Shown here: positions 1 to 1,432 of the stretch, one piece after another
Layout: every line of letters starts with the position of its first letter
Position numbering within the stretch: position 1 is the stretch's first letter
DNA from: Candidatus Avispirillum faecium
Lineage (GTDB): Bacteria > Bacillota > Clostridia > Oscillospirales > CAG-272
Length of the DNA stretch: 64,000 nt
Assembly (NCBI GenBank): GCA_904396155.1
Contig: CAJFOI010000012.1
Location: 1-64,000 of the forward strand
Direction: 5' to 3'
Notes under the pieces: generated by a model
Seen by the model: only the letters and a program-made list of their open reading frames with translations
Told to the model about the DNA's origin: nothing
The model's database searches: none
Translations under genes and position numbers: made by a program

Positions 1-85
1 CGTCCGCTGCGGAGGAATAAAGCGCCGGCGTGATGCACGTCACAAGCAGTGCTGCCATTAATAGGATAGAAAACAGCTTTTTCAT
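1..85 (-). CDS. Secreted protein, N-terminal fragment (runs off the window)
   Basis: Only the first 28 codons are present. They encode a classic signal peptide: MKK start, a hydrophobic core (LFSILLMAALLVT) and a small-residue region ending near SSAAD that could be a signal peptidase I site. The ATG at 85 has a GAGG-type ribosome binding site about 8 bases upstream; an ATG at 90 is followed at once by a stop and is excluded. No promoter facing this gene is visible between it and the invertible segment at 146-423. It is therefore the likely target of that switch. The mature protein is outside the window, so its function cannot be told. Confidence 0.75.
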   Translation of the reverse strand, partial: MKKLFSILLMAALLVTCITPALYSSAAD

Positions 86-145
86 GTCATTTAACCTCAT
101 TTTTGCTTATTGTTTTTATAAGTCTGCAGATTTGGGCAAGCGCAA

Positions 146-161
146 CATAATCGGTATTATG
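146..161 (+). repeat. Left inverted repeat of the invertible segment
   Basis: CATAATCGGTATTATG. It is the exact reverse complement of 408-423. It is itself built as 6-bp arms (CATAAT/ATTATG) around an asymmetric 4-base core (CGGT), as expected for a tyrosine-recombinase core site with two recombinase-binding arms. Confidence 0.85.
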
Positions 162-248
162 TAATAAATACAGACTGAAATTTGCTGTTTGGAACTACCG
201 AATTTACACGAGCCGCAAGACTAAACTTAAAAACGAACGCAAAAAGTC

Positions 249-280
249 AAGCCTTTTCAAAATTTCTATTGAAAAGGCTT
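249..280 (-). terminator. Hairpin inside the invertible segment, likely one-way terminator
   Basis: Perfect 12-bp stem (AAGCCTTTTCAA / TTGAAAAGGCTT) with an 8-base loop. On the minus strand it is followed by GACTTTTTG, a short U run; on the plus strand only ATTCGTG follows. In the present orientation it should therefore stop minus-strand read-through from the recombinase gene towards the secreted-protein gene. After inversion this polarity would reverse. Confidence 0.6.
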
Positions 281-341
281 ATTCGTGCTGCTTGTTTTTG
301 ACATTATCCCGTAAAAATTATACTTTTCTTTGCTGAATTGC

Positions 342-370
342 TTGTAATTTCCCGCAAGCTATGATATAAT
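342..370 (+). promoter_or_regulatory. Sigma-A promoter inside the invertible segment
   Basis: -35 TTGTAA at 342-347, 17-bp spacer, -10 TATAAT at 365-370 with an extended TG at 362-363. Transcription would start near 377 and run rightwards, away from the secreted-protein gene, into the terminator at 431-452. A weaker second candidate begins with TTGACA at 298-303 but has a poor -10 (TACTTT) at 17 bp. Confidence 0.8.
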
Positions 371-407
371 TATATTCATAAAATAAGTTTGGTATCTCCA
401 TTTGCAA

Positions 408-423
408 CATAATACCGATTATG
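408..423 (-). repeat. Right inverted repeat of the invertible segment
   Basis: CATAATACCGATTATG, the exact reverse complement of 146-161. Same 6-bp arms with the core reversed (ACCG). Both copies are preceded by GCAA and followed by TA on the plus strand, so 142-163 and 404-425 differ only by inversion of the core. Confidence 0.85.
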
Positions 424-430
424 TATTTAG

Positions 431-452
431 CCGCCGACCCAGGCGGTTTTTT
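431..452 (+). terminator. Intrinsic terminator just outside the right repeat
   Basis: Stem CCGCC/GGCGG with a GACCCA loop, then six T. It lies 8 bases beyond the right inverted repeat and faces the promoter at 342-370. In the present orientation it should end that transcript before it runs antisense into the recombinase gene. On the other strand there is no U run, so it is one-way. Confidence 0.8.
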
Positions 453-481
453 CAATAAGACGAAGCCGTCAATCAGCAAAG

Positions 482-1327
482 CTATATAATTAGCCGCATA
501 TGCTCCATTTTCCTGCGATGCTCCGCACCGGTAGAAATAATATAGATGCGAGTGGTATCGATACTGCTGTGGCCGAGAATATCGGCAAGCTTGGCCATAT
601 CCTTTTCGATGTCGTAGAAAACTCGGGCGAATAAGTGTCGCAAATTGTGAGGAAAAACCTTCTCCGGACGGACATTTGCCTGGGTGCATAGGCTCTTCAT
701 TTCCCGCCAGATGTTGGTGCGGCTTACTGGATTGCCACTTCGGGTGATAAATATGGGGCCCGACGAAATTTTTTGCTCTGCTGCATAGCGGAGCAATTTC
801 TTTTGCAGCGCGGGCACAATAAAAACGGACCTTGTTTTTCCCTTACAGAATACATCTGCTTTTCCGCGTTTTGCCGCTTCCGCTGTGATAAACTGCAGCT
901 CGCTCACGCGAATACCTGTACCGCAGATTGCCTGCAAAAGGAGGCCGAGCCGTTCTTTGCCTTTTTGTTTCGAGGTATGCACCAGCCGCATATACTCCTC
1001 CTTTGTCAGTTCTCTGTCTTTGGAACAGTAGATTTGCCGCTGAATTTTGACGGATTTTATTTTGCAATCCGTCCAACCCAAAAAAGAAAACAGACTGTTG
1101 AGAGGTGCCAGCATGGAATGGATACTGGCGACTGCATACGCTTTTTCAAACAATGTCCTTTTGTATTGCATCACGATTTTTTTGGAAATATTTCTATGAT
1201 TTGTAAAAGATACAAACATTCGTATGTCATGGATGTACTTTTCAATAGTAGCTTTGCTTTTTTCTTCTTCTCGCAGGTATTCTTCAAATTTTTTCATTGT
1301 TCTGTCTGTCAGCCTTCGTCTTTTCAT
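482..1327 (-). CDS. Tyrosine recombinase (XerC/D-like DNA invertase)
   Basis: A 281-residue integrase of the tyrosine family. An N-terminal SAM-like arm-binding domain (about residues 10-90) precedes the catalytic domain. Catalytic residues are visible: Arg140 in GTGIRVSEL, Lys at 162 or 164 in CKGKTR, His227 and Arg230 in HNLRH, His253 in GHSS, and the nucleophile Tyr262 in TRIYI. The ATG at 1327 is chosen because GGAGGG precedes it by 8 bases; an upstream in-frame TTG at 1342 lacks a site. The gene ends 58 bases from the right inverted repeat. Enzymes of this size beside inverted-repeat-flanked promoters commonly invert them, which is the role I infer. A chromosomal XerC/D role is unlikely given the small divergent protein and its location. 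Confidence 0.9.
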   Translation of the reverse strand: MKRRRLTDRTMKKFEEYLREEEKSKATIEKYIHDIRMFVSFTNHRNISKKIVMQYKRTLFEKAYAVASIHSMLAPLNSLFSFLGWTDCKIKSVKIQRQIYCSKDRELTKEEYMRLVHTSKQKGKERLGLLLQAICGTGIRVSELQFITAEAAKRGKADVFCKGKTRSVFIVPALQKKLLRYAAEQKISSGPIFITRSGNPVSRTNIWREMKSLCTQANVRPEKVFPHNLRHLFARVFYDIEKDMAKLADILGHSSIDTTRIYIISTGAEHRRKMEHMRLII

Positions 1328-1432
1328 TGATATTCCCTCCAAATATCTTTTTGTGTATTCTAACAGAAAATAAAATTTGTATTTTTATTCTGAACTACAG
1401 GAGAAATTCCTGTGTGCTTTTTTACAAATAGG

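Follow-up and report, generated by a model that had tools for sequence, protein, structure and literature searches.

Does the beginning of the window, i.e., the whole stretch of 64,000 nucleotides that was analysed, carry a promoter that is turned over by the recombinase encoded beside it, and which gene would such a promoter command? That invertible promoters can be associated with tyrosine recombinases is established knowledge. Much work on phase variation has been devoted to Bacteroides and C. difficile, and little to the gut Clostridia, which are mostly uncultured and form a large share of the microbiome. A preliminary description had proposed for this locus a recombinase-linked invertible promoter, i.e., a probable phase-variation switch. 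The proposal is upheld: sites, promoter and recombinase are present and relatives show both orientations. The locus is very probably a self-contained ON/OFF phase-variation cassette, inverted by the adjacent recombinase.

Sites, recombinase and promoter of the window

The 18-bp sequence ACATAATCGGTATTATGT is found at 145-162 (left site, plus strand) and its reverse complement at 407-424 (right site, minus strand). These sites form a perfect inverted repeat and fit the consensus of 144 relatives. When the 64-kb window was scanned for perfect inverted repeats of at least 16 bp with a spacing of 60-500 bp, this pair was the sole match; 20 shuffled windows gave none. The pair had been described as perfect repeats of 16 bp with a 4-base core: it is indeed perfect, its length is 18 bp, and the 4-base core has to be abandoned, the variable centre being 6 bp in the 144 relatives. 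Among the latter, the arms are ACATAA and TTATGT, with a weaker inner extension (tGtAAa) and six variable central bases; the left site of the window thus reads ACATAA-TCGGTA-TTATGT. Judged from these sequences, the layout is Xer-like (arm-6-arm). The motif of the cassette family can be written as ACATAAnnnnnnTTATGT. The two sites enclose an invertible segment of 244 bp (163-406; family median, 243), homologous to segments present in both orientations.

The right site adjoins the 3' end of a gene encoding an Xer-like tyrosine recombinase, the presumed inverter of the segment (482-1342, minus strand; 286 aa from a TTG codon, 281 aa from the ATG at 1327). The gene had been claimed to be complete, and this holds: the reading frame is intact, the Phage_integrase domain is recognised (Pfam PF00589, 7.7e-22) and the stretches of the catalytic motifs are present (GTGIRVSEL, CKGKT, HNLRH, LGHSS and TRIYI). 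The protein thus has the catalytic R-K-H-R-H-Y set and the domain that define the tyrosine recombinase family. It was aligned over most of its length with XerC-like, XerD and XerA structures (PDB 4a8e, 1a0p, 5hxy). Its scores against the NCBIfam equivalogs XerA, XerD and XerC (125.6, 104.4 and 103.3 bits) lie below the respective cut-offs (220, 329.6 and 335 bits), as do those against the Fim-type DNA invertases PRK09870 and PRK09871 of NCBIfam (29.7 vs. 221 and 25.2 vs. 222 bits).

A strong sigma-A promoter with an extended -10 had been announced between the repeats and is found there by consensus: TTGTAA-17-TATAAT with TG (342-370, plus strand), aimed at the 3' end of the recombinase gene, i.e., in the OFF direction. 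Promoters are recognised here by their match to the consensus, and the match at 342-370 taken alone is weak evidence, since four promoter-like matches (this one among them) were obtained and shuffled sequences give 3.3. Its position is conserved in relatives: whichever the orientation, about 45 bp separate the -10 from the near site. Because this distance is kept in both states, a leader of about 100 bases is predicted for the window in the ON state. On the far side of the left site, the leader of the regulated gene (86-144, minus strand) has a Shine-Dalgarno sequence GAGGT at 94-98, and the promoter scan found no promoter of its own. The promoter direction and the homology to relatives both back the earlier reading that the state shown is OFF.

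A terminator-like hairpin with a T-run was located inside the segment by the hairpin scan (248-281, minus strand), between the promoter and the gene when OFF. Two relatives, L062 and L221, have the same hairpin (AAGCCTTTTC...GAAAAGGCTT) or one very similar to it. It was considered as a directional insulator and not retained: the terminators of relatives face both ways (36 the same, 54 the opposite), which leaves a weak case only. A second hairpin, the guard terminator, lies just past the right site and faces the recombinase (429-448, plus strand), at the same place and in the same direction as in relatives. Among the 91 loci with room between the recombinase stop codon and the near site, a terminator faces the recombinase in 60 and the gene in 3 (shuffled sequences: 0). 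The guard terminator should, as predicted from its position, end the transcript of the OFF promoter and shield the recombinase from antisense transcription.

The cassette family and its inversion among relatives

Homologues were obtained from relatives (66 of 195 genomes), from GTDB contigs (80 loci) and from the class (61 of 391 genomes). A centre-matched inverted pair of sites is present just past the 3' end of the recombinase in 144 of the 161 distinct homologous genes for which 450 bp or more of downstream sequence exist. The median values are 26 bp from the stop codon and 243 bp between the sites. The same search upstream of the recombinase gave no pair (0/176), and none was found in shuffled sequence. 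A few relatives have one recognisable site only, or none. On the basis of these counts the cassette is widespread in Clostridia.

The association was also found within the 1.95-Mb genome of the window. The pattern ACATAATnnnnATTATGT, with at most one mismatch, occurs at six places, i.e., three inverted pairs, on contigs C12 (that of the window), C22 and C48; the reversed control pattern has no match in the same genome. The three best matches to the recombinase in this genome sit exactly beside the pairs (C12 itself; C22, 58% identical; C48, 47%). The layout is common to the three: recombinase, site, 223-244 bp, inverted site, then a gene in the direction of the recombinase. The preliminary description had named, as an outcome that would refute it, repeats that prove to be a common dispersed sequence unrelated to the recombinase; this is contradicted, every copy of the site in the genome belonging to a pair that adjoins a recombinase of this family.

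The second of these switches (C22:20264-23935; L011 8264-11935) is predicted to be OFF and is paralogous to that of the window. It precedes a small ORF, agrB, an agrD-like ORF, a LytTR regulator and a histidine kinase (GHKL); phase-variable quorum sensing via a complete agr-like operon is possible. If this were true, cell-to-cell signalling would itself be stochastic. The third switch (C48:64155-70850; L012 7155-13850) precedes a surface protein of 1858 aa with SpaA and weak PA14 domains; its state is uncertain because its promoter is weak by consensus.

Homologous segments are met with in either orientation relative to the recombinase, about 104 being OFF and 36 ON; OFF is thus about three times commoner than ON. 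Orientation was called by segment homology together with the promoter, as the promoter scan alone proved noisy; promoter direction and homology-based orientation agree in 134 of 140 cases. In the largest component of the segment homology (37 segments, 334 edges) there are no conflicting edges and the orientations are mixed. The segment of the window aligns on the opposite strand to those of two ON loci, L062 and L055.

One comparison concerns two species of the window's genus (G003 and G002), which have an orthologous switch, paralogous to that of the window. Their flanks are collinear (88% on the recombinase side and 85% on the target side) while the segment with its sites (93%) aligns to the opposite strand, the breakpoints falling at the sites. 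The same inversion pattern is seen on the recombinase side for two other pairs (L062/L044 and L123/L129). The comparison of related genomes recommended at the outset has thus yielded both orientations, including a pair with collinear flanks, and the locus has these traits of an inverton: repeats bounding a promoter, and inverted forms in relatives.

When the orientations were placed on a tree of 137 recombinases, 30 changes were needed, against 30.7 ± 1.9 with shuffled labels. Since these counts are equal, orientation (read from assemblies, i.e., the majority form) is apparently not inherited over such distances, which is expected under frequent flipping. The exact search of viral contigs for the inverted junction of the window gave no match and is uninformative. 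In one genome (G091), two paralogous switches (L018 and L141) have segments that are 97% identical and in opposite orientation; this suggests, from the sequences, a recent duplication or conversion and a flip.

Proposed mechanism, presumed output gene and alternative explanations

In the mechanism proposed, the recombinase encoded at 482-1342 would bind both 18-bp sites, exchange strands in the 6-bp centres and invert the 244-bp segment. In the OFF state, the promoter would fire toward the 3' end of the recombinase gene and the guard terminator (429-448) would end the transcript after at most about 80 bases; neither a transcript of the secreted-protein gene nor an antisense RNA to the recombinase would be made. 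In the ON state, transcription from the inverted promoter would proceed leftward, cross 145-162 and enter the secreted-protein gene, whose start is at 85. We infer that the adjacent recombinase is the actor, that flipping occurs in the present strain and that the promoter and the terminator are active.

The presumed output gene is represented by its 5' end (1-85, minus strand; ATG at 85-83), which encodes the beginning of a secreted protein, MKKLFSILLMAALLVTCITPALYSSAAD..., and is truncated: window base 1 is also the first base of the contig, so that only 28 codons are visible. Bases 1-87 are identical at the end of C12, the end of C5 and the start of C1 (window 1-87; L219 11602-11688; L220 1-87). 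On C1 they form the start of a secreted protein of 727 aa with cohesin and dockerin domains. On C5, the same 87 bases are reached from an ordinary promoter, behind a related gene of 362 aa. The overlap looks like an assembly branch, with two upstream contexts and one downstream contig. The output is probably a member of the cohesin/dockerin family, as far as the overlap indicates, and its partner copy is uncertain because the 87-base start also follows the ordinary promoter on C5. In the family, the output is taken as the first ORF past the distal site, and at 125 of 136 loci this ORF has the sense orientation. It must be noticed that the cohesin/dockerin-family genes at the assembly branch have identical signal peptides, perhaps through gene conversion between copies.

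The earlier designation of the gene starting at 85 as the output is therefore retained in part: a start codon and a Shine-Dalgarno sequence are there, but the gene is cut off at the assembly branch. That the switch is real and its true output another gene or copy deserves some weight, though it is rather unlikely. The 87 bases common to the three contig ends speak for it, a branch of about that k-mer size being concerned; on the other hand, the start codon and the Shine-Dalgarno sequence are contiguous with the switch, and the targets at three other loci, i.e., L197 (same genus), L200 and L203, match the same C1 protein.

It is improbable that the switch is real but flipped by another recombinase (either paralogue or XerC/D), the adjacent gene being incidental. 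The three switches of the genome share arm sequences, cross-recognition is possible, and RecV of C. difficile acts on unlinked sites (PMC5903667). Nevertheless, across Clostridia nearly all pairs have a recombinase of the family next to them, in the same position, and, in many genomes, the adjacent recombinase is the only copy found. Slightly more improbable is a fixed or dead relic that once recombined and is now locked OFF, with a silent gene. It would suit the OFF state of the window and the excess of OFF among relatives, but both sites and the recombinase frame are intact, the catalytic motifs are present and the 6-bp centre is kept perfectly matched.

Hardly any credit can be given to repeats that are a regulatory palindrome (operator) or the integration sites of a mobile element, with no inverting switch: each site is nearly palindromic and resembles the Xer/dif core, and one relative sits on a mobile element, but relatives differ by the inversion of homologous segments, whose breakpoints fall at the sites, and paired inverted sites with matched centres exist at 144 loci.

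Targets, known systems and copies within genomes

A self-contained cassette inverted by its own recombinase might be set before different genes. For 71 pairs of loci whose segments strongly resemble each other, the downstream proteins are without detectable similarity in 56 and related in 15; in this count the ORFs were chosen automatically, the window target was taken as the C1 protein and some pairs may be wrong. The targets of 120 loci comprise SPFH/Band 7 proteins (15), SipW signal peptidase matches (11) and collagen-like adhesins (6), as well as leucine-rich adhesins, pilin-like proteins, sugar transferases and restriction enzymes. The relative Merdimmobilis hominis An559 (L049) has a cassette predicted to be OFF, whose target is an SPFH protein. 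On a contig of the viral collection (L221 4001-8842), which also carries ParB-like and serine recombinase genes, an ON cassette precedes a restriction-modification operon (Eco57I-type methylase and restriction helicase) on a mobile element.

The cassette looks portable because similar cassettes precede unrelated genes. We lean, with some reserve, toward a portable phase-switch unit of Clostridia (recombinase, guard terminator, two sites and invertible promoter) in which each recombinase serves its own pair. Such a unit could be placed in front of nearly any target, e.g., adhesins, pilins, SipW/SPFH operons, restriction-modification genes of mobile elements and a complete agr operon. The cassette would be a compact flip switch with its own recombinase and insulation, and its fixed layout would make switch, state and target gene predictable from sequence alone in hundreds of genomes.

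The preliminary description knew of no account of this particular switch. This needs restriction, since the hCom2 survey of 2025 includes, according to its text, an inverton group (139; 32 of 33 from Clostridia) which probably contains relatives (PMC11892184). As reported there, the strongest link of group 139 is to an adjacent group of tyrosine recombinases (invertase group 35), and an example from Clostridium sp. D5 changed orientation over passages in culture (PMC11892184). The present family is probably group 139/35, the likeness to the text of the survey being one of taxon, size and adjacency and not of motif: Clostridia, a short inverton, an adjacent tyrosine-type recombinase and, for Clostridium sp. 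D5, repeats and spacing of comparable length (PMC11892184). By contrast, the main text of the survey is without a guard terminator or an analysis of portability (PMC11892184). The statement holds for the guard terminator, the portability of the cassette and the agr target, which were not found described in the literature searched; nothing relevant was found there on inversion-driven phase-variable agr or phase-variable cellulosome genes.

The RecV switches of C. difficile (flagellar, cwpV and others) are similar in that a tyrosine recombinase inverts 150-230 bp between short inverted repeats (PMC5903667, PMC5386303, PMC2784873), in a host that also belongs to Clostridia. However, several switches depend on RecV, whose gene lies apart from them, and Cdi7 is the only one with a neighbouring recombinase (PMC5903667), whereas in the present family each switch is accompanied by a recombinase of its own at a constant distance. 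The fim switch of E. coli (FimB/FimE) also has an invertible promoter, of about 300 bp, and nearby tyrosine recombinase genes (PMC5903667). It differs by its sites, its two recombinases and its accessory factors, and belongs to another branch of recombinases, the DNA invertase models scoring only 25-30 bits on the window protein. XerC/XerD-dif and the archaeal XerA are the closest solved and curated relatives of the protein and have a similar arm-6-arm site, but the window protein is far below the curated cut-offs, and its sites are paired and inverted beside the gene, in contrast to the single dif site.

In genomes with several copies of the cassette, the centres differ in most. Private centres as a protection against cross-talk were considered and rejected, as different centres are no commoner than between genomes and nine copies of one genome share TTGATA. 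This genome (G151) has about 15 recombinase copies (L124, L130, L136, L140, L142, L144, L146, L148 and L175-L181), and the centre TTGATA is common to nine of its resolved switches; since it is shared, distant switches could recombine with each other and rearrange the chromosome.
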